Assembly (NCBI RefSeq): GCF_021631985.1
Contig: NZ_CP070225.1
Span: 5,270,001-5,334,000, forward strand
DNA: 64,000 nt
Origin: Sandaracinus amylolyticus
Lineage (GTDB): Bacteria > Myxococcota_A > Polyangia > Polyangiales > Sandaracinaceae
Direction of reading: 5' to 3'
Shown here: positions 25,951 to 40,529 of the stretch, one piece after another
Layout: each line of letters starts with the position of its first letter
How positions within the stretch are numbered: the first letter of the stretch is position 1
Notes under the pieces: generated by a model
Told to the model about the DNA's origin: nothing
What the model saw: only the letters and a program-made list of their open reading frames with translations
The model's database searches: none
Position numbers and translations under genes: made by a program

Positions 25951-27648
25951 ATGCGCTTTCGCTCCCTCACCGCGCTCGCGGTGCTCTCGCTCGCCGCGTG
26001 CGACGGGTCGCTGCTCGATCCACGCGGCAGCGGTCCCGGCACGGTCGACGGCTGGGGTCCAGACGGCCCGAGCGGTCCAGGTGGCCCCACGGTCCCCGCC
26101 GAGCCGGGTCGCGTGACCATGCGCCGGCTCAACCGGAGCGAGCTCGACCACACGGTCCGCGACCTGCTCGGCCTCGAGCACCCGGTCAGCACCGACTTCC
26201 CCGCCGACGATCGTGGCTACGGCTACGACAACAACGGCGACGTGCTCTCGACCTCGGCGCTCCACGTCGAGCTGCTCGCGAGCAGCGCGGAGGAGTGGAT
26301 CGACGAGGCGCTCGGCACGACCGAAGCGCCCGGTCCGGGCCGCGAGCGCATCCTGACGTGCGACGCCGCGACGGGCGGTGAAGCGTGCGCGCGCACCATC
26401 CTCACCGCGTTCACCCGCCGCGCGTGGCGCCGCCCCGCGACCGAGCCCGAGCTCACCCGACTGCTCGGGATGAACACGATCGCGCAGATGCACGGCGACG
26501 GCTGGCCCGAGGGCGTCCGCCTCGCGCTGATCGCGACGTTGATCTCGCCGCACTTCCTCTACCGCGTCGAGCTCGACGATCCCGCGGTCACCGGCCCCGA
26601 GCGCGTCTCGGACTACGAGCTCGCGTCGCGCCTCTCCTACTTCCTCTGGGCGAGCGCGCCCGACGACGAGCTGCTCGACCTCGCGGAAGAGGGCGGGCTC
26701 CACGACGAGACGATCCTGCGCGCGCAGGCCGAGCGCATGCTCGACGACGACCGCGCGCGCTCGCTGGTCGACGACTTCGCGGGGCAGTGGCTCTACACGC
26801 GCCTCGTCCCCGAGCACGACGCCGACGACGCGACGTTCCCCGAGTGGACGCCCGATCTCGCGCGCTCGGCGCAGGGCGAGATGGAGCGCTTCTTCGCGGC
26901 GTTCCTCGAGGAGGATCGGCCGGTCGAGGAGATGCTCACCGCGGGCTTCGGGTTCGTCGACGATCGCCTCGCCGCGCACTACGGCGTCGAGATCCCGACC
27001 GACGCGACGCGCGACGAGCAGGGCTTCGCGCGGGTGATGCTCCCCGACACGCGCAGCGCGGGCCTCCTCTCGCGCGCCGGTGTGCTCGCCGTGACCTCGC
27101 AGCCGAACCGCACCTCGCCGGTGAAGCGTGGTGTGTGGGTGCTCGAGCAGATCCTCTGCTCGCCGCCGCCGCCCCCGCCGCCCGGCGTCGAAGGGCTCGA
27201 GGCGACCGAGCCGCGCGAGGGCGAGACGCTGCGCGAGCGCTTCGAGCGGCACCGCAGCGATCCGGTCTGCGCGTCGTGCCACTCGGTGATGGATCCGATC
27301 GGCTTCGGCCTCGAGCGCTACGACGCGATCGGTCGTTATCGCGAGACCGACAACGACGGCGCGATCGACGACAGCGGGCTCCTGCCGGGCTTCGGCGACT
27401 TCACCGGCGCGAGCGAGCTCGGCGCGATGATCTCGAGCGACCCGCGCTTCCCGCGCTGCGTGACGCGCCAGATGATGACCTACGCGCTCGGCCGCGGTGT
27501 CGAGCACCGCAGCGACGAAGCGTGGGTCGACCTGCTCACCGAGGACATGCTCGCGAACGGCGGGACGCTGCGCGCGCTGGTCCTCGAGATCGTGACGAGC
27601 CCCCCGTTCCGCATGCGTGGCGCCGATCACGGCGCGGAGGACGAGTGA
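25951..27648 (+). CDS. DUF1592/DUF1588/DUF1585 domain lipoprotein (planctomycete-type cytochrome-like)
   Basis: A 565-residue exported protein with lipobox SLAAC (Cys17) and a Gly/Pro-rich linker. The domain order is the DUF1587 start (MRRLNRSELDHTVRDLLG), DUF1595 (FTRRAWRRPATEPEL), DUF1592 (ELASRLSYFLWASAPDDELL), DUF1588 (NRTSPVKRGVWVLEQIL) and DUF1585 at the C-terminus (VTRQMMTYALGRG). One c-type haem motif, CASCH, lies near residue 446 after a poly-Pro stretch. These proteins are always paired with a DUF1552 protein and are thought to act in periplasmic oxidation, but no reaction is established. Confidence 0.9.
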   Translation: MRFRSLTALAVLSLAACDGSLLDPRGSGPGTVDGWGPDGPSGPGGPTVPAEPGRVTMRRLNRSELDHTVRDLLGLEHPVSTDFPADDRGYGYDNNGDVLSTSALHVELLASSAEEWIDEALGTTEAPGPGRERILTCDAATGGEACARTILTAFTRRAWRRPATEPELTRLLGMNTIAQMHGDGWPEGVRLALIATLISPHFLYRVELDDPAVTGPERVSDYELASRLSYFLWASAPDDELLDLAEEGGLHDETILRAQAERMLDDDRARSLVDDFAGQWLYTRLVPEHDADDATFPEWTPDLARSAQGEMERFFAAFLEEDRPVEEMLTAGFGFVDDRLAAHYGVEIPTDATRDEQGFARVMLPDTRSAGLLSRAGVLAVTSQPNRTSPVKRGVWVLEQILCSPPPPPPPGVEGLEATEPREGETLRERFERHRSDPVCASCHSVMDPIGFGLERYDAIGRYRETDNDGAIDDSGLLPGFGDFTGASELGAMISSDPRFPRCVTRQMMTYALGRGVEHRSDEAWVDLLTEDMLANGGTLRALVLEIVTSPPFRMRGADHGAEDE

Positions 27649-28997
27649 TGTCGGCGTGGAGCAAGAAGAAGCTGGGGCGCCGGTTCTTCCTCGGCGGTGC
27701 GGGCGCGGCGATCGCGCTGCCGTTCCTCCCCTCGGCGGTGCGGATGCTCGAAGGACGTGGCACCGCGCACGCGGATCACGCGTCGTGCGAGACGCCGAAG
27801 CGGCTGCTCGCGTGGTACGTGCCCTGCGGCATCCACATGGCCGCGTGGCGCCCGACGTCGACGGGACGCGACTTCGCGCTGCCGGAGATCCTCCAGCCGC
27901 TCGAGCCGGTGCGCGGGAAGATGAACGTGCTGACCGGCATCGCGAACATGCCGGCGCGCCCCGACGGCCCGGGTGATCACGCCGCGGGCACCGGCTCGTT
28001 CATCACCGCGACCCACGTGGTGAAGACCGAGGGCTCCGACATCCGCAACGGCGTCTCGATGGACCAGGTCGCGGCGACGCACCTCGGATCGTGCACGCGC
28101 TTCGCGTCGCTCGAGCTCGGCATCGACGGCGGTGGGCCCGCGGGCGGATGCGACTCCGGCTACTCGTGCGCGTACGCGCGCAACGTGAGCTGGAGCGGAC
28201 CGCAGACGCCGATGCCGAAGATGACCGACGTGCGCGCGGTGTTCGATCGCCTGTTCGACGGCTTCGATCCCACCGCGTCGCTCGCCGAGATCGAGCGCCG
28301 CCGCGCGTACCGCACGAGCGTGCTCGACGTCGCGCTCGAGGACGCGAATTCGCTGCGCCCGCGCCTCGGCACCACCGATCAGCGCAAGCTCGACGAGTAC
28401 CTCACGGCGGTGCGCGAGGTGGAGCTGCGCATCTCGTCGGAGGAGACGCTGGTGTGCGAGGTCCCGGGGCGCCCCGCGGAGGACCTCGATCTCACCGCGC
28501 GAATCGACGTGATGAGCGACCTGCAGGCGATCGCGATGCAGTGCGATCTCACGCGCGTCATCACGTTCATGATGGCGAACGCGGGCAGCAACAGGAGCTA
28601 TCCGTTCCTCGGCATCGGCGACGGGCACCACAGCCTCTCGCACCACCAGGGCAACGCCGAGAACCACCGCAAGCTGACGCTGATCGATCGCTGGGAGATG
28701 GAGCGCTTCTCGTACTTCCTCCAGAAGCTCGACTCCATCGAGGAGCCCGGCGGCGGCACGCTGCTCGACACCTGCGCGGTCTTCCTCTCGAGCGAGATCT
28801 CGGACGGCGATCGCCACAACCACGACGACATGCCGATCCTCGTCGCCGGCACTGCGGGCGGCGCGTGGGAGACCGGTCGTCACGTCGTCTACGACGGTCG
28901 CCCGCCGGTCGCGAACCTGTTCACGACGCTGCTCAACGCAGTCGGCGTCCCCTCGACGCGCTTCGGCGACGACGGCACCGGTCCGCTCACGATCTGA
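27648..28997 (+). CDS. DUF1552 domain protein, Tat-exported
   Basis: A 449-residue protein with a twin-arginine signal (GRRFFLGGAGAAIALPFLP at about 10-28). The rest is a sulfatase/DUF1501-like alkaline-phosphatase-superfamily fold: LLAWYVPCGIHMAAW, GDHAAGTGSFITA, DGHHSLSHHQG and SSEISDGDRHNHDDMPILVAG carry the His/Asp residues likely to bind metal. The start ATG overlaps the stop of the DUF1592 gene by one base (TGATG), so the pair is translationally coupled and both products go to the periplasm. Tat export fits folding with a metal cofactor inside the cell. Function is unproven for the whole family. Confidence 0.9.
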   Translation: MSAWSKKKLGRRFFLGGAGAAIALPFLPSAVRMLEGRGTAHADHASCETPKRLLAWYVPCGIHMAAWRPTSTGRDFALPEILQPLEPVRGKMNVLTGIANMPARPDGPGDHAAGTGSFITATHVVKTEGSDIRNGVSMDQVAATHLGSCTRFASLELGIDGGGPAGGCDSGYSCAYARNVSWSGPQTPMPKMTDVRAVFDRLFDGFDPTASLAEIERRRAYRTSVLDVALEDANSLRPRLGTTDQRKLDEYLTAVREVELRISSEETLVCEVPGRPAEDLDLTARIDVMSDLQAIAMQCDLTRVITFMMANAGSNRSYPFLGIGDGHHSLSHHQGNAENHRKLTLIDRWEMERFSYFLQKLDSIEEPGGGTLLDTCAVFLSSEISDGDRHNHDDMPILVAGTAGGAWETGRHVVYDGRPPVANLFTTLLNAVGVPSTRFGDDGTGPLTI

Positions 28998-31051: not shown

Positions 31052-34000
31052 GTGCCCGTCCTCCTCTTCCAACGCCTGCTCACGAGCACGGTGGATCGCG
31101 ACGATCTGCCGGCGTTGCGCACGCTCGCGTCGCTGCCGATCCCGGAGCGAGCGCCGTGGCTCGGTGCGCTCGCGCCCGCGCTCTCGCACCCCGACGTCGA
31201 CGTGCGCGTGGCTGCGGTGCGCGCGCTCGCCGGCGCTCGCGGGCGCGTGGGATTCCTGCGCATCGCGGACGCGCTCGACGACGACGACGACGCGGTGCGG
31301 ATCGCGGCCGTCGAGTCGCTGCGCGCATCGAGCGCGGGCCTGCCCGCCGCGTGGGCGCTCGCGATCTTCCATCGCGATCCCGCGGTGCGCCGCGCCGCCG
31401 TCGCAGGCGCGCCGCCGCTCGGCTGCGAGTCGCTCGAGCTGCACCTGCTCCCCGATCCCGCGTGCGCCGACCACGTCACGTTGCCCACCGTGCCGCGCGC
31501 GATCGGGCCCATCCTCGCGCACGTCCGAAGCGGCGTGATGAGCGCGGAGCGGGCGCGCGGGTGGATCGAGGCGAACCTCGGCGTGCAGCTCCTCAACGAG
31601 CTCCTCGTCGTTCGCTACCGCACCCCCGCGGAGATCGATCCGATCCTCGACGGCGACGATCCCGGGGTCGCGCACGACGACACGCTCGAAGAGCTGATCG
31701 AGCTCTTCTTCGACCCCGAGGTGGAGCCCGCGCGCTGCGCGAGCGTGCTGCGCACCGTGCGCGCGATGCTGCTCGCGCGCGCCGACACCCACCGGCGCGC
31801 GGCGGCCGCGCTCTACGCGATCCTGCGGCGTACCGGCAAGCTTCCCGCGGCCGGGGCGGCGATGCTCGGCGCGCTCTATCCCGCGGCGCTCGCCGATGTC
31901 CGTCTCTCTCGCGCGCTGCGCGTCGCGGCGCTCGAGGGGCCACTGCAGTGCGGAGACGCGGTGCCCGCGCTCGCCGCAGAGGCCGTCGACGCGCTGCTCG
32001 GCGGCGATCTCGTGCGCACGCCCGAGGGCGCGCTCGATCTCCGAGCGCTCGCCGCGATCTTCACGGTGGCGCGCGGCGTCGACGTCGCGACCGTGATCGC
32101 GCGGATCGGCGAGCGCGAGATCATCGACGCGTTCCGGAGCGATGCGCGACGCGCAGCGCCGCTGATCGCACGTGCGCCCTCGCTCCTTCCGGCGCTGATG
32201 AGCGCGATGCCCGAGCAGCGCGCGCTCCTGGTCGCGCTCGCGATCGCGGCCACGCCGACCGACGACGTCACGCTGCCCGCCGGGGTCGACGGCGCGCTCG
32301 CGATCGAGATCGCGCTCGCGCTCGACGCGCTGCGCGTCTCGGACGAGGCACGGCTGACCGCGGCGAAGGTCGATCGCGCGGTCGAGATGCTCGGCGGGCA
32401 GGTCGCGGTCGCGCCCGCGGCCCTGCGCGCGCTGCTCGTCGCGCTCGTCGATCACGCGGACGCGAAGGGCTCGCCGCTGCTGCTCGATCTGCTCGGCGAC
32501 GCCGCGCGGCGCGTCGGCGCCGACCCGTGGACCGAGGCTGCGCTCTCGCTCGAGCTGCACCGCCTCGTCGCGCTGGTCGTGCTGCTCGGCCACGTCACGA
32601 GCCTGCCCTTCGCGAAGGAGCTCGCGCTCGCCCACGCGCTCGCCGAGCACGACGATCCCGCGCTGCGCGGGTGGGCCGCGAGCCGCGTGCCCCGCCCTGC
32701 CCTCGAAGATCCCTCCTCGATCACGGTGGGCTCGCTCGACGAGCGCCAGATCGCGCGGATCGCCGACGCGACCACCGCGGGCGATCTGCTCGATGCGCTG
32801 CGTCCCGCGCTGACCGCACCACGCCGCGGCCTCGTCGCGGTGCTCGCGGCGCGTCGTCCGATCGTCTCGCCCGTCGTGTGCGCGGCGTTGCTCGCGTCGC
32901 ACGACGATCCTGCCGCGGTGGCGCGCGAGCTGGTGCGCTGGTCCGCGCCCACCGGCGCGTTCCGCACCGAGCTCGACGCGGAGATGGTCCGCCGCTGGCG
33001 CGGCCGTCACGACGTGCTGCCGGTGCTCGCCAACGCATGGCTGCACCTCTTCGAGGCGCACGCGTTCGCGCTGATCGAGCGGCTCGCCGCGGGGACCGAC
33101 GGAGTGCTCGGCGCGATCGCGGCGGCGCGCACGCTGCCCGCGCCGATCCTCGCGCAGCAGATCTGGGCCGGCGTGGCGACCGTCGCGGAGATGTGGCGAT
33201 GGCGCGATCGCACGCGGCTCGAGGAGCTGGCGACGCCCGCGCTCTTCGACCTCGCGCTCTCCGAGCTCGACACCGACCTCGGCGACATGGCGGCGCGCCT
33301 GCTCGTCTCGTGCGGCGTGGTCGCGCCGACGTTGCTCGCGGAGCGAACGCCCGCGATCGTCGCGCTGCTCCCGGATCTCCCCGAGCGCACGCGCGAGCGG
33401 CTCGTGTCGATCGCGAGCGCACGCGGCCTCGCGCCGTCGCGCCGCGCGCCGCGCCCCCGCATCACGTCGACCGAGCTCGACGAGATCGCGCGCATCAAGA
33501 GCCTCGCCGATCTCGATGCCCTCGCGCGCGAGTGCGAGGGCACGGTCGAGCCGCTGGTCCAGGAGGCCGCGCTCGCGCTGCTCCTGCGCGGTGCGGGCGC
33601 CGGTGAGCGACGCATCGCGCAGCTCCTCGAGCGCGAGCCCGGCGTGCCCTGCGCGAGCGCGCTCGCGGCGGCGGTGGACTTCTTCGAGTCGGAGGCCGCG
33701 CTCGACGTCATCGAGGCGATGGTGCGCGCGCGTCGCGGCGCGGGCGCCGACGCGGAGCTGCGGTTCCGGCTCGCGGTGTCGCTCGCGCGGCTCGGTCGCG
33801 CCGATCTCGCCGACGTCGCGCTCGACGCGGCGTGTGATCCGACGCCGCCGATCGGGTGGATGCGCGAGAGCGACGTCGAGCGGCTCGAGGCGCTGCGCCC
33901 CCTGCTCGTGGTCGCGTGCGCGCTCGCGCGCTCTCCGCATCCCCACGCGTACACGCGCGCGGTGCGGACGCTGATGGCGCGCGCGTACGACCCGACGGTC

Positions 34001-36052
34001 CTCGGTCGCTGCGTCGAAGGGATCCGCGCGTTCCTGATCGCCGGGCCCGATCGCCTCGCGACGCTGCGCAAGAGCGCGGCGCAGTGGCTGATCGCGCACG
34101 AGGATCGCCTCGGCGCCCCGCTCCTGATCCAGAGCGCGCTGCGCGCCGAGCAAGCGCTGCCGACCGAGCTGGTGCGGCGCATCAGCGAGGGCATGGTGAT
34201 GGCGCTCGCCGAGGGCGGGCTCACCGTCGGACACGAGCACGTGCTCGAGCCGCGGATCGTCGACCTGCTCGAACGGTTGCGCACGCAACCGAGCGCCCGC
34301 GAGTCCGCGCTGCGTCGGGTGCTCGAGGACGGGATCTACGAGGTCGCGCGACGCCGTGCGCGCGCCCTGATGGTCCCGTCGCGCGCCCGCGACACGAAGC
34401 TGCGCGAGGTCGCCGACGTGTTCGCGTGGGGCACGCGCCGCTCGCGCGAGCTCACCGGGCGCGTCCTCCGCTTCCACATCAGCGACGTCTCGCAGCTCGG
34501 GTACACGACGATGCGCTCGGGCGACGTCCACGTGACGCCCCTGCCGATCTTCCAGCGCGAGCGCGACGGTCGCACGATCGTCGAGGCCCTCGTGCTGCAC
34601 GAGATCGGGCACCACGTGTTCCACGGCTCCGTCGAGGCGATCGCGATCTGGGAGCAAGCGGACGAGATGGGCCTCGTGCGCCTGCTCAACCTCGTCATGG
34701 ACGAGCACCTCGAGCGCAACCTCCGCGCGATGGAGGCCGAGTGGGGCGATCGCCTGAAGACGCTCGCGGCGTGGGCCTTCCGTCACTCGCGCAACGACGT
34801 GCGGCTCGATCTGCTGCTCTCCATCCTCGGCGCGCACGCGTTCGAGGTGCTCAGCGCGACGAAGCTCGGCATCGCGCGCGATCGCACCGCGATCACCGTG
34901 GAGAGCGGCGCGGTGCTGGGCGCGCTCGAGTCGCGCGGCCACTCGTTCGCGCGCTTCGTGCGCGCGCTCCGCATGGGCCTCGGGGATCGCTCCGGCGATC
35001 CCAAGGTGCGCGAGGCGCTCGCGCTCTTCGATCGCAAGTTCCGTCACGCCGACGTGCCGCGGCTCTGGGAGATCGCGCAGGCGCTCCATCGCATCTTCGG
35101 GCAGGAGATCGACGTCGCGCTCGGGTTCGGCGGCGCGGAGTCGGTGTCGCGCCCCGGCGAGCTCGTCGACTGCGACGAGGGCATCACCGACGGCGAGGTG
35201 CAGCGCGAGGTGCAGCGCGTGCTCGAGGCCCCGCGCAGCGCGCCCGGAGCGCCGCCGCCGGGCCGCGATCAGCCCCTCGTGATCAACGTCGGCGCGAGCC
35301 AGGAGTGGGCGCCGATCACCCGCGTCGAGGTGCTGCCGCCCGATCCCGGAAAGCACGAGCAGGTCGCGAGCACGGTGCGCCGTCACGCCGATCGCATGCG
35401 CCGCCACCTCGAGGAGCTCGGCCTGCGATGGGAGCCGCAGCGCATGCGCCTCCAGGGTCGTCGCCTCGACGTCGCGCGCCTGCGCGCGCTGGTCACCCGC
35501 GGCGATCCGCGCGTGCTGATCGCGCGCGAGCTTCGCCACCGCACCGACCTCTTCCTCGGCGTGCTGATCGACTGCTCGGGCTCGATGAACGGCACCTCGA
35601 TGGAGCGCGCCCACGCGTTCGGCGTGCTGCTCGCAGAGGCGGCGCGCGATCTGCGCGGCGTCGATCTGCGCGCGTTCGGGTTCACCGATCGCTGCGTCTA
35701 CGACGCGGGCGATGCGCGACGGTCGGCGATCACCTCGCTGCGCGCGACCGACGGGAACAACGACGCGGCCGCGCTCGACTACGTCGGTCAGGTCGCCGCG
35801 CGATCGACCCGTCGCGCCAAGCTGATCGTGATGATCAGCGACGGCCTGCCCACCGAGTGCTCGGTCGAGGCGCTGCGCACGTGCGTGCGGCGCACCTCGC
35901 GTCGCGGCATCGCATGCGCGCAGGTCGCGGTGCGGCCGCTCGAGGAAGTGTGCTTCCCGCACTACGTCGTGATCGAAGGCGGCGAGCTCGACGGAGCGGT
36001 CGCGCGCTTCGGCGAGGTGATCACGAAGCTGGTGCGCCAGGTGATGAGCTGA
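31052..36052 (+). CDS. Giant HEAT-repeat / HExxH metallopeptidase-like / vWA fusion protein
   Basis: A cytoplasmic protein of about 1,666 residues with no signal or membrane segments. Residues 1-1100 are almost entirely Ala/Leu-rich paired helices of HEAT/Armadillo style (e.g. HPDVDVRVAAVRALAGARG, DDDAVRIAAVESLRA). A zincin-like region follows with the motif H1183-EIGHH, preceded by IVEALVL and followed by acidic helices (MDEHLERNL). The C-terminus (about 1,495-1,666) is a von Willebrand A domain with a full MIDAS: D1507-C-S-G-S, a Thr in TDGNND and Asp in ISDGLPTE. The start is taken at GTG 31052 because the frame upstream is open but non-protein-like; no good ribosome site is visible. MoxR ATPase follows 11 bp later, and MoxR-vWA pairs act together as chaperones or in conflict systems. 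I do not know a named family with this domain set. Confidence 0.85.
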   Translation: MPVLLFQRLLTSTVDRDDLPALRTLASLPIPERAPWLGALAPALSHPDVDVRVAAVRALAGARGRVGFLRIADALDDDDDAVRIAAVESLRASSAGLPAAWALAIFHRDPAVRRAAVAGAPPLGCESLELHLLPDPACADHVTLPTVPRAIGPILAHVRSGVMSAERARGWIEANLGVQLLNELLVVRYRTPAEIDPILDGDDPGVAHDDTLEELIELFFDPEVEPARCASVLRTVRAMLLARADTHRRAAAALYAILRRTGKLPAAGAAMLGALYPAALADVRLSRALRVAALEGPLQCGDAVPALAAEAVDALLGGDLVRTPEGALDLRALAAIFTVARGVDVATVIARIGEREIIDAFRSDARRAAPLIARAPSLLPALMSAMPEQRALLVALAIAATPTDDVTLPAGVDGALAIEIALALDALRVSDEARLTAAKVDRAVEMLGGQVAVAPAALRALLVALVDHADAKGSPLLLDLLGDAARRVGADPWTEAALSLELHRLVALVVLLGHVTSLPFAKELALAHALAEHDDPALRGWAASRVPRPALEDPSSITVGSLDERQIARIADATTAGDLLDALRPALTAPRRGLVAVLAARRPIVSPVVCAALLASHDDPAAVARELVRWSAPTGAFRTELDAEMVRRWRGRHDVLPVLANAWLHLFEAHAFALIERLAAGTDGVLGAIAAARTLPAPILAQQIWAGVATVAEMWRWRDRTRLEELATPALFDLALSELDTDLGDMAARLLVSCGVVAPTLLAERTPAIVALLPDLPERTRERLVSIASARGLAPSRRAPRPRITSTELDEIARIKSLADLDALARECEGTVEPLVQEAALALLLRGAGAGERRIAQLLEREPGVPCASALAAAVDFFESEAALDVIEAMVRARRGAGADAELRFRLAVSLARLGRADLADVALDAACDPTPPIGWMRESDVERLEALRPLLVVACALARSPHPHAYTRAVRTLMARAYDPTVLGRCVEGIRAFLIAGPDRLATLRKSAAQWLIAHEDRLGAPLLIQSALRAEQALPTELVRRISEGMVMALAEGGLTVGHEHVLEPRIVDLLERLRTQPSARESALRRVLEDGIYEVARRRARALMVPSRARDTKLREVADVFAWGTRRSRELTGRVLRFHISDVSQLGYTTMRSGDVHVTPLPIFQRERDGRTIVEALVLHEIGHHVFHGSVEAIAIWEQADEMGLVRLLNLVMDEHLERNLRAMEAEWGDRLKTLAAWAFRHSRNDVRLDLLLSILGAHAFEVLSATKLGIARDRTAITVESGAVLGALESRGHSFARFVRALRMGLGDRSGDPKVREALALFDRKFRHADVPRLWEIAQALHRIFGQEIDVALGFGGAESVSRPGELVDCDEGITDGEVQREVQRVLEAPRSAPGAPPPGRDQPLVINVGASQEWAPITRVEVLPPDPGKHEQVASTVRRHADRMRRHLEELGLRWEPQRMRLQGRRLDVARLRALVTRGDPRVLIARELRHRTDLFLGVLIDCSGSMNGTSMERAHAFGVLLAEAARDLRGVDLRAFGFTDRCVYDAGDARRSAITSLRATDGNNDAAALDYVGQVAARSTRRAKLIVMISDGLPTECSVEALRTCVRRTSRRGIACAQVAVRPLEEVCFPHYVVIEGGELDGAVARFGEVITKLVRQVMS

Positions 36053-36063
36053 GGAGTGCGGTC

Positions 36064-37185
36064 ATGACGAAGCTGGAGATCGAAGAGATCCGCGAGGGCG
36101 CGGTGATGGAGGCGACGTTCTGGGCGAACCCGGTCGAGGACTCGCGCTTCAAGTACCGCGCGACGCACCTCGACGGGCGGCGCGCGCCCAAGGTCGTGCT
36201 CAGCGACGACGCGCGCATCCAGCCCGGCGTCCCGTGCCTCGTGCGCATCGAGGCGATCCACAAGCCCGAGCGAGCCGATCACGGCTACATCGAGGCGAAG
36301 TGGGAGCGCCCCGCGCCCTTCCGCATCGAGGGCGTGTGGATCGATCCCGTCGTCGCGAAGAAGCTGCAGATCCTGCTCGAGAGCGGGCTCAACATCCTGC
36401 TCGACGGCCCCCAGGGCTGCGGCAAGACGACGCTCGCGCGCGCGATCGCGGAGTCGCTCGGGATGGAGTTCGTGTTCTTCAACTGCGGCGCGGTGGTCGA
36501 GGCGAGCGACTTCCTCGCGACCATCCAGGTGCGAGCGAGCGCGTCGGGCGCGCCGGTCACCGACTTCGTCAAGACCGACGTGCTCCTCGCGATCGAGCAG
36601 GCGAACGAGACGAAGGACGAGCGCTATCTCGTCTTCCTCGACGAGCTCAATCGCTGCCCCGAGAGCGCGCGCAACGCGCTGATGCCCGCGCTCGACGCGA
36701 CGCGACGCGTGTTCCATCCGGTGGAGAACCGCTTCGTGACGATCCCCGATCACGTGCAGTTCGTCGCGGCGGTGAACCGCGGTCGAGAGTTCTCGGGCAC
36801 GTTCGGCATCGACGCGGCGCAGCTCGATCGTTTCGCGCCGCTCCAGATGCGCTACCCGCCGCCGCCCGAGGAGGTGAAGCTGCTGCGCGCGCGTCATCCC
36901 TCGCTCGGCAAGGAGCTCGTCGAGACGCTCGTCGCGATCGCCGATGCAGTGCGCCACGCGCCCGAGCTCGGACAGAGCCTCTCGGTGCGCGCCACCGACG
37001 AGGCGTGCGTGTACCTCGAGCATCCGCTGATGAGCGAGGAGCCGCGCGCGAACCTGCCCGACGTGCTCAAGTCGAGCTTCTGCGGCCGCTTCTCGGGCCG
37101 CTGGGACGATCCGGGCAGCGACGCAGGCGCGGTGTGGGCGACGGTGACGCGCGTGCTGCGCGAGCGCGGGGAACCGGTGGCGTGA
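36064..37185 (+). CDS. MoxR-type AAA+ ATPase with N-terminal beta-rich extension
   Basis: A 373-residue ATPase. An N-terminal domain of about 95 residues (MTKLEIEEIREGAVMEA..., rich in strands) precedes a AAA+ core. Walker A is G115-PQGCGKTT, Walker B is YLVFL-D193-E194-LNR, sensor 1 is VAAVNRG and the arginine-finger region is DAAQLDRF. The core is of the MoxR/CbbQ/GvpN group, which remodels metal-dependent or multisubunit protein complexes together with a vWA partner. It is 11 bp behind the vWA fusion gene, so the partner is almost certainly that protein. The N-terminal extension is unusual for MoxR and may bind the HEAT region. Confidence 0.92.
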   Translation: MTKLEIEEIREGAVMEATFWANPVEDSRFKYRATHLDGRRAPKVVLSDDARIQPGVPCLVRIEAIHKPERADHGYIEAKWERPAPFRIEGVWIDPVVAKKLQILLESGLNILLDGPQGCGKTTLARAIAESLGMEFVFFNCGAVVEASDFLATIQVRASASGAPVTDFVKTDVLLAIEQANETKDERYLVFLDELNRCPESARNALMPALDATRRVFHPVENRFVTIPDHVQFVAAVNRGREFSGTFGIDAAQLDRFAPLQMRYPPPPEEVKLLRARHPSLGKELVETLVAIADAVRHAPELGQSLSVRATDEACVYLEHPLMSEEPRANLPDVLKSSFCGRFSGRWDDPGSDAGAVWATVTRVLRERGEPVA

Positions 37186-39604: not shown

Positions 39605-39644
39605 ACGAACGCCGGTGATCTCGCCCGAGGTCACCGGCGTTCGT
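39605..39644 (+). terminator. Strong terminator hairpin after lipoprotein gene
   Basis: Perfect 14-bp arms (39605-39618 and 39631-39644, ACGAACGCCGGTGA and its complement) with a 12-base loop, starting eight bases after the stop. Only a short GCTTCT follows, so it is a weak-tailed intrinsic terminator or 3' stabiliser. Confidence 0.75.
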
Positions 39645-39656
39645 GCTTCTCGCGAT

Positions 39657-39703
39657 CTTCGATGCAACTTGCATCGAAGACTTCGATGCGTCATGCATCG
39701 AAG
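39657..39703. promoter_or_regulatory. Two tandem 23-bp palindromes directly before the TIGR02452 start
   Basis: Two sites of the form CTTCGATGC-N5-GCATCGAAG occupy 39657-39679 and 39681-39703, separated by one base. The arms are identical in both copies and only the five central bases differ (AACTT and GTCAT). The second ends one base before the ATG at 39705. A 24-bp period puts the two sites near-equivalently on the helix. They overlap the ribosome-binding region, so a bound protein would block transcription or translation of the gene. Confidence 0.8.
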
Positions 39704-39704
39704 C

Positions 39705-40529
39705 ATGAACGACAAGCCGAACCGAAGACGTCGCCAGGAGATCGCGGAGCAGACGGTCGCGATCCTGCGGGCGGGCCGCTACGTCGCGCCGAGCGGGCGC
39801 GAGATCGACATCACCACTGCGATCGCCGATGCGGTCGCAGGCACCACGCTGCACACGCCGGAGCGTCCGCCACCGCGCGCGATCCCGAGCGCGCGCCCGA
39901 CGACGATCACCGTCGCGAACGAGACCACGCTCGTCGGCGCGAAGCGCCTGCACGACGCGGGACATCGTGTCGCCGCGCTCGTGTTCGGCTCGGCGCGCAA
40001 CCCGGGCGGTGGGTTCCTCGGCGGCTCCGAGGCGCAGGAGGAGAGCCTCGCGCGCGCGTCGGCGCTCTACGCGTGCGAGGAAGGCTCGCCCTTCTACGAG
40101 CACCACCGCGCGCACCGCGCTCCGTACTACTCGCACCACGTGATCCACGCGCCCGACGTGCCGGTGCTGCGCGACGACGCGGGCACGCTCCTCGAGTCGC
40201 CGTGGCCGTGCACGTTCCTCGTGGCCGCGGCGCCGAACCGGCGCGACCTCGATCCCGACGAGGAGACCGCGCCGGTCATGGCCGAGCGCATCGCGCGCAT
40301 CCTCGACGTCGCTGCGGCGCACGGTCATCGCACGCTCGTGCTCGGTGCGTTCGGGTGCGGCGTGTTCCGCAACGATCCGGTCGAGGTCGCAGGGCTCTTC
40401 GCGACCGCGCTCGAGGGCAGCCACGCGGGCGTCTTCGACGAGGTGCGCTTCAGCGTGCTCGACACGTCCGAGGAGGGCGCGACGTTCCGCGCATTCGCCG
40501 AGCGGTTCGCGCATGATCGCGATCGATGA
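39705..40529 (+). CDS. TIGR02452 family protein (PARG-like macrodomain)
   Basis: A 274-residue cytoplasmic protein. The N-terminal helices (NRRRRQEIAEQTVAILRAGRY) and core AALVFGSARNPGGGFLGGSEAQEESLARASALY are diagnostic for the TIGR02452/DUF2263 group. This group is related to poly(ADP-ribose) glycohydrolase; the GGG-x-QEE segment matches the PARG catalytic loop. Later LGAFGCGVFRNDP is the second macrodomain ligand loop. It probably removes or senses ADP-ribose modifications. ATG 39705 is chosen because it follows the tandem palindromes and matches the family start. It shares ATGA with the next gene (40526-40529). Confidence 0.9.
   Translation: MNDKPNRRRRQEIAEQTVAILRAGRYVAPSGREIDITTAIADAVAGTTLHTPERPPPRAIPSARPTTITVANETTLVGAKRLHDAGHRVAALVFGSARNPGGGFLGGSEAQEESLARASALYACEEGSPFYEHHRAHRAPYYSHHVIHAPDVPVLRDDAGTLLESPWPCTFLVAAAPNRRDLDPDEETAPVMAERIARILDVAAAHGHRTLVLGAFGCGVFRNDPVEVAGLFATALEGSHAGVFDEVRFSVLDTSEEGATFRAFAERFAHDRDR

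Follow-up and report, generated by a model that had tools for sequence, protein, structure and literature searches.

Results

The window, the whole stretch of DNA analyzed here, comprises 64,000 nucleotides of the Sandaracinus amylolyticus chromosome. An open reading frame on its forward strand, running from a GTG start at position 31052 to a stop codon ending at 36052, encodes P0001, a protein of 1,666 residues that combines HEAT repeats, a predicted zincin-like domain and a C-terminal vWA domain. It is followed on the same strand by the gene for a cognate MoxR-type AAA+ ATPase of 373 residues (36064 to 37185), whose ATG lies 11 bases past the P0001 stop. The sequence-only reading of this locus had put forward the 1,666-residue frame, the vWA domain as its tail and the adjoining MoxR gene, and all three held up. 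The GTG start fits a comparison with a congener 90% identical, in which 2 of the first 30 residues differ, as opposed to 73 of the 127 residues read in frame ahead of 31052; this jump in divergence supports the start. Over residues 1 to 300, the differences from the congener fall mainly at third codon positions (29, 16 and 73 at positions one, two and three). P0001 is long and rich in Ala, Leu and Arg, and has a single match in its own 10.96-Mb genome. Searches with P0001 gave no match in NCBIfam or PADLOC and no relative at an E value of 1 among PDB sequences. Elsewhere in the window, positions 39615 to 40526 hold a gene with a microbial-type PARG catalytic domain, and positions 25951 to 28997 encode a DUF1587/1595/1592/1588/1585 protein followed by a DUF1552 protein, which we take to be an ordinary gene pair in this group.

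The N-terminal part of P0001 had been described as about 1,100 residues of HEAT-like helices, a claim that stands for its beginning and weakens beyond it. Sequence matches give solid support to tandem HEAT repeats at residues about 39 to 145 (31166 to 31486, forward strand): Pfam HEAT_2 matches residues 39 to 117 just under the curated cut-off, HEAT_2 was found in the N-terminal parts of nine of the 10 family members scanned (best E value, 3.8e-10; the N-terminal parts of L069 to L077 were left out), and alpha-Rep HEAT designs and HEAT proteins in the PDB match positions 41 to 142 of the N-terminal alignment profile, with E values down to 8.9e-26. Residues 146 to 1084 (31487 to 34303, forward strand) are presumably a helical scaffold and evolve fast; weak similarity was seen only at residues about 822 to 895, to designed ARM proteins (best E value of 0.0091, alignment profile versus PDB), and at residues about 1030 to 1100, to HEAT (hhalign E value of 0.0027), and a search for internal HEAT repeats over residues 150 to 1030 yielded no clear signal. 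Constraint is far stronger in the zincin-vWA core than in the HEAT part, with 125 of the 154 invariant positions in an 11-sequence alignment located within residues 1101 to 1666.

Residues 1085 to 1365 (34304 to 35146, forward strand) are predicted as a zincin-like domain. Modeled alone from 10 sequences, this part gave a confident fold (pLDDT of 88.1, pTM of 0.82) in which strands are followed by a helix with the HExxH motif and then by a helix with NLVMDEHLER; the first of these helices spans model residues 89 to 107 and carries the motif at 99 to 103. A model of residues 1070 to 1666 had a mean pLDDT of 79.5 and a pTM of 0.52. The HExxH motif noted earlier at H1183 is thus present as HEIGHH at residues 1183 to 1188 (34598 to 34615, forward strand), and structure prediction places its helix in a separate beta-containing domain with a conserved acidic candidate for a third ligand. 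H1183, E1184, H1187 and H1191 are identical in all 20 sequences that contain the zincin region (the window's included, the fragment L078, which lacks the region, left out), so conservation of the motif, on which the earlier proposal depended, is without exception in this set. The same holds for N1213, D1217, E1218, E1221 and R1222 in NLVMDEHLER (residues 1213 to 1222; 34688 to 34717, forward strand), while identity to the window's domain ranges from 96% down to 32%. H1188 varies and is not needed. By analogy, H1183 and H1187 are candidate metal ligands and E1184 a candidate general base; that E1184 is kept together with the ligands is as expected of an enzyme. From these features we infer zinc binding and peptidase activity.

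The fold comparisons point to zincins as a class. Foldseek of the zincin domain against the PDB returned no match reaching an E value of 0.001; its best match was the minigluzincin jannalysin (E value of 0.4, prob of 0.99), and its 50 best rows comprised 29 entries with titles that we take to denote zincins (jannalysin, abylysin, selecase, Wss1, LTA4 hydrolase, other M1 peptidases and neurolysin) and 21 unrelated ones at a prob of 0.08 or less. In VIA-align, 49 of the 50 best rows were, by the same presumed reading of titles, zincins with Z scores of 4.3 to 6.8, many of these entries being the same few proteins; the one remaining row, 3o0y, has an uninformative title. The zincin reading rests on the dominance of one class in this list, although single Z values are middling, and with Z at most 6.8 it is a statement at the level of the fold. 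Bacterial cobaltochelatase CobT was absent among the zincin-domain matches listed (the best 50 of Foldseek and the best 50 of VIA-align). At the sequence level, no Pfam peptidase model reached its cut-off, with Zincin_1 seen in two of 11 members (best E value of 0.012), and the zincin alignment met three PDB sequences at E values of 0.066 or worse, taken as chance.

For the third ligand, we propose D1217 as the best candidate, with E1218 as the alternative. Eleven of the 50 VIA-align rows end with model residue 137 opposite residue 322 of human LTA4H, 324 of PepN, 397 of ERAP2 or 367 of yeast LTA4H; taking the third zinc ligands of these enzymes to be E318, E320, E393 and E363, respectively, D1217 would coincide with the Glu that is the third ligand of gluzincins if the ends align without gaps. 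Six of the 50 rows, mostly with trim off, pair that helix three or four residues differently, such that the alignments differ in register by about one helical turn; the remaining rows carry no information on this point. The likeness to minigluzincins and M1/gluzincin peptidases consists of the predicted fold of residues 1085 to 1365 and the HExxH motif; those enzymes have Glu as the third ligand, whereas the candidate in P0001 is an Asp located 30 residues past H1187.

Downstream of the zincin-like domain, a linker and a predicted vWA finger region (residues 1366 to 1498; 35147 to 35545, forward strand) lie partly within VIA-align alignments to NorD chains, and the vWA/MIDAS domain follows at residues 1499 to 1666 (35546 to 36049, forward strand). 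Pfam VWA_CoxE matches residues 1449 to 1624 above its cut-off (E value of 7.9e-7), and by Pfam and the PDB this domain is most like those of CoxE, CobT and NorD. Its best VIA-align match is the MIDAS domain of midasin (Rea1), with a Z score of 22.1 and an rmsd of 2.2 over 195 aligned residues. Against the model of residues 1070 to 1666, the NorD chains 9qh6_G and 9qhd_G reached Z scores of 17.8 and 17.6 over 236 to 237 aligned residues, covering model residues 345 to 593 (rmsd of 8.1) and 322 to 593 (rmsd of 7.7), respectively. The vWA of P0001 is related to the NorD and midasin MIDAS domains. As to the MIDAS motif itself, DxSxS (DCSGS, residues 1507 to 1511) and D1597 are present in 21 of 21 sequences, but the canonical Thr of DxSxS-T-D is, from the sequence, probably replaced by Asn: N1569 and N1570, in NND at 1569 to 1571, are invariant in 20 of 20, and T1545 is off the spacing seen in NorD, where T534 and D562 lie 28 residues apart (PMC9976466). 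Among 11 sequences, C1603, C1622, C1634 and H1637 of the vWA are also invariant; the three cysteines are lost in some further members, so the family as a whole does not share a metal site there.

The MoxR protein matches Pfam AAA_5 (E value of 1.1e-14), and its nearest PDB sequence is midasin (E value of 1.5e-19). Its nearest NCBIfam model is GvpN, at 47 of 267 bits and far below the cut-off; it scored 15.8 of 27 bits with the bpMoxR model, also below the cut-off, and gave generic ATPase matches only in PADLOC. About 80 to 100 residues precede its AAA+ core (36064 to 36330), a part covered by none of the 25 Pfam families listed.

A scan of genome contigs with P0001 revealed at least nine loci, from a Sandaracinaceae bin, other Myxococcales or deltaproteobacterial bins, Plesiocystis pacifica, a Kofleriaceae bin, an uncultured bacterium, a Phycisphaeraceae bin and another Planctomycetota bin (L005 is apparently the G005 contig again). 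The chromosomal HEAT fusion was found in Myxococcota and Planctomycetota. Complete relatives have open frames of about 1,620 to 1,990 residues with the zincin-vWA part C-terminal; a contig end truncates L009 and L069. In a sample of the phylum, 20 of 95 genomes matched the zincin-vWA part at an E value of 0.001, with G050 alone, besides the window's genome, matching over the whole part (E value of 9.7e-103) and the remaining matches short and in the finger/vWA region.

When the same protein was sought in other genomes, MoxR came with it. In 16 of 20 loci, the gene is followed on the same strand by a MoxR of the same subfamily (44 to 97% identical), at a spacing under about 200 bases (about 1.4 kb in L073; in L007, the contig ends inside MoxR), and the other four loci, from Plesiocystis and three genomes of one genus, have a MoxR 70 to 72% identical on another contig. 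Across the order, with limits of E 1e-30 for the zincin-vWA part and E 1e-50 for MoxR, both genes occur in one and the same set of 11 genomes out of 144, the window's own among them, with one copy of P0001 in each, and within these limits neither gene was found in the remaining 133; the 11 genomes are related and do not represent 11 independent events. Because the two genes are kept together in a genome even where they lie apart, they appear to be a functional pair. The MoxR link is stronger than adjacency, and by genomic evidence P0001 and MoxR are a conserved two-gene machine. Clustering of the neighbors in 23 regions, several of them short and with frames overlapping P0001 or MoxR left out, revealed no further frame common to more than three regions, and those three were congeners. 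Two side observations concern individual copies: G050 has a second copy of the vWA part at a contig end (L078, contig 120), accompanied by a MoxR that shares 44% identity with that of the window, and the MoxR match in G121 (contig 81, L083), one of those on a separate contig, spans one in-frame TGA, which may reflect a sequencing error or a broken copy.

Relatives of the core were found in phages and plasmids. Group 2.2 jumbo phages are reported to carry a MoxR and vWA pair in which the vWA has a metallopeptidase fused on its N-terminal side (PMC7824862). In a Foldseek search against viral models, phage CobT-like and VWFA proteins headed the matches to the 597-residue model; the matches extend across the model, but TM-scores near 0.3 and rmsd values mostly about 20 or more in the leading rows make them leads only. 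Eight of the 11 phage or plasmid CobT-like/VWA proteins read contain HExxH, the exceptions being Thermus phage P74-26 gp48, the vWA protein of pRlX6 and the product of the gene upstream of the latter. In seven of the eight, N(x3)D(x3)E comes no more than about 35 residues later; in the eighth, from GMA7, HEIGH is followed by N(x3)D(x3)D, and the profile was built from the other seven. In a pairwise hhalign comparison, this seven-protein profile matched the zincin domain over 105 columns (prob of 91.7, E value of 7.7e-7), while all 20 column-shuffled versions gave E values of 0.048 or worse. The core of P0001 is therefore remotely homologous to phage and plasmid metallopeptidase-vWA proteins.

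A CobS, MoxR, AAA or ATPase-family gene adjoins the vWA gene in CRP-810, pKAM376, an E. coli plasmid and GMA7, as does an unannotated AAA_5/CbbQ_C gene in MT835482; in pMAQU02, an annotated ATPase lies three genes upstream. The genes adjacent to that of BS162P1 are annotated as hypothetical, and pKO116 has HExxH but lacks DxSGS, with no ATPase annotated in the stretch covered. The jumbo-phage pair and the CobT-like proteins share HExxH, N(x3)D(x3)E and a C-terminal vWA, mostly with a MoxR-type ATPase close by. They differ from P0001 in having no HEAT arm, with 584 to 768 residues in the set read, whereas P0001 is chromosomal with about 1,080 extra residues. A search of plasmids with the CRP-810 protein gave 1,025 records at an E value of 1e-5, three of them covering at least 80% of its length; P0001 had no plasmid match at that limit. 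Three phage records match residues 1070 to 1666 at an E value of 0.01, in the C-terminal part only, and two scans of viral contigs gave no relatives.

Several details of these elements are recorded here as observations. HExxH with N(x3)D(x3)ER occurs in L097 (2134 to 4086), L098 (3001 to 4857), L099 (1956 to 4262), L101 (2926 to 5034) and L057 (5821 to 7620), in proteins labeled CobT in some cases and hypothetical or unannotated in others; MoxR/CobS/AAA-type ATPase genes adjoin in L097, L099, L101 and L057. In two plasmids (L100, 2054 to 2971; L103, 1987 to 3393), a DUF3150 gene, perhaps a further partner, lies directly upstream of the HExxH-bearing VWA gene. Rhizobium plasmid pRlX6 (L102, 1780 to 5173) has a small vWA gene; neither it nor the hypothetical gene before it contains HExxH, and a MoxR gene and a separate CbbQ_C-type piece come after it.

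A remote similarity was also seen to PF13203 (DUF2201_N), a putative metallopeptidase family in which the strand, the HExxH helix and N(x3)D align with the zincin domain and a vWA-like domain follows. The hhalign E values were 1.3e-5 with A2 (prob of 80.5) and 1.1e-4 with A4 (prob of 55.8), and 10 of 10 shuffles of A4 gave 0.2 or worse. Proteins of that family have a shorter spacing, open frames of about 330 to 620 residues and no HEAT arm. Membership of P0001 in PF13203 was rejected, as there was no match at an E value of 1 and the similarity is confined to remote profile comparison.

Discussion

With a HEAT arm, a zincin-like domain, a vWA (adhesion) domain and a MoxR of its own, P0001 looks like part of an ATP-driven remodeling machine. 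Close parallels are NorQ-NorD and CbbQ-CbbO (MoxR, CGN group), which share an N-terminal part, a linker and a finger-bearing C-terminal vWA with a MoxR ring as partner. In NorQD, the pore of the NorQ hexamer takes up the finger of a single NorD vWA, and the client is proposed to be strained as the vWA rotates relative to the N-terminal domain (PMC13036017). NorD differs in that its description, as available, mentions no peptidase, and its sequence comparison to P0001 is essentially confined to the vWA. The parallel also bears on the earlier view that MoxR ATPases normally partner with small vWA proteins, which does not fit NorD, a 70-kDa protein with a C-terminal vWA, or the highly variable length of the N-terminal parts of such proteins (PMC9976466). 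Midasin/Rea1 is akin as the best PDB sequence match of MoxR and the best VIA-align match of the vWA. It differs in joining six AAA units in a single chain and is not known to contain a zincin.

We tentatively favor, as a reading with a real but not preponderant chance of being right, that P0001 and MoxR form an ATP-driven remodeling machine in which the vWA subunit is also a zinc metallopeptidase and cleavage is delivered by a twist. By analogy with NorQ-NorD, a MoxR hexamer would engage a single P0001 chain through its finger and vWA, and the vWA would be turned relative to the N-terminal part as ATP is hydrolyzed. A client held at two points, by the HEAT arm and the MIDAS, could thereby be strained; since the zincin lies between arm and lever, strain may deliver or expose a segment to the active site, and the twist would present the zincin with a segment that is strained or unfolded, belonging either to the client or to P0001 itself, for one or a few cuts with no wholesale degradation. 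Complex formation, client binding by the HEAT part and gating by ATP are our inferences. Counting against this model, the closest vWA relatives, CoxE, CobT and NorD, serve metal insertion and not proteolysis, no substrate gene is conserved nearby, and the NorD alignments have an rmsd of 7 to 8. The scores of the zincin domain in Foldseek, VIA-align and Pfam given above, and the shift in third-ligand register between alignments, also weigh against it.

These same relatives make metal insertion without cleavage the main rival, in which the HExxH/D site would hold a metal and MoxR-vWA would open a client for loading. CobT serves metal insertion, and CoxE, CobT and NorD are among the nearest vWA relatives in Pfam and the PDB; NorQD and CoxDE likewise serve metal insertion (PMC9976466, PMC13036017, PMC7159879). 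We consider this rival rather unlikely: E1184, which hydrolysis requires but metal binding does not, is the same residue in all 20 sequences, and this invariance speaks for hydrolysis over plain metal insertion; furthermore, the zincin domain resembles peptidases in fold, the related midasin and CbbO are not metal insertases, and no metalloenzyme gene is conserved nearby. A catalytically dead zincin serving as a structural or regulatory hinge would agree with the weak similarity to any peptidase model, with the fact that vWA chaperones need not cleave, and with phage CobT-like fold relatives that lack HExxH, such as that of Thermus phage P74-26, but none of the 20 family sequences has lost H, E, H or D, and we regard it as very unlikely. 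That the motif arose by chance within an ordinary HEAT helix, as might happen in a protein so long and so rich in Ala, Leu and Arg, is extremely improbable and was rejected, given its invariance in 20 of 20 sequences, the separate beta-containing domain predicted with high confidence, the zincin structure matches, and the phage and plasmid relatives that carry the same extended motif and whose profile match far outscored all 20 shuffled profiles.

P0001 and MoxR could instead belong to a biological-conflict (defense) system akin to the MoxR-vWA ternary systems, with the HEAT scaffold and the peptidase as effectors. In those systems, HEAT scaffolds, and rarely metallopeptidases, are reported in the effector position, with a preference for multicellular bacteria (PMC7159879), and the distribution in 11 of 144 genomes is patchy. 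Nevertheless, we judge a defense role quite unlikely. The third core component of the ternary systems (VMAP, iSTAND, bpX) was not found in the 23 regions, where no third gene is common to more than three; P0001 has no PADLOC match, and MoxR has only generic ATPase ones; and each of the 11 genomes has one copy (G050 has a second, cut one). An effector in the sense of conflict systems finds no backing in the neighborhood data or PADLOC.

Nor is the pairing of HExxH-vWA with MoxR a new arrangement, as had been suggested, since it has been reported in jumbo phages (PMC7824862), and we found it in phages and plasmids. The HEAT-zincin-vWA-MoxR combination was not found in the open-access literature; the giant HEAT-fused form appears to be undescribed, and its core is of a known but little-studied metallopeptidase-vWA plus MoxR kind. 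A bolder and more doubtful proposal is that the remodeling peptidase set out above represents a new AAA+ protease architecture in which MoxR gates single-site cleavage. The peptidase would lie outside the ring, with no chamber, between a HEAT arm holding the client and the MIDAS lever of a vWA co-chaperone. In this proposal the core would be spread in phages and phage-like plasmids as "CobT", and cobaltochelatase CobT itself could have arisen from this metallopeptidase-vWA stock; the idea of descent draws on the naming of the phage proteins. The cobalamin/CobT label on these phage and plasmid genes is probably misleading.

MoxR-vWA pairs are widespread, and few have known clients. A chromosomal pair with an intact zincin site provides a direct handle, in that a catalytic-dead mutant should trap the client. 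Beyond the family itself, the results suggest that some phage and plasmid genes labeled as cobalamin biosynthesis protein CobT may be MoxR-coupled metallopeptidases.
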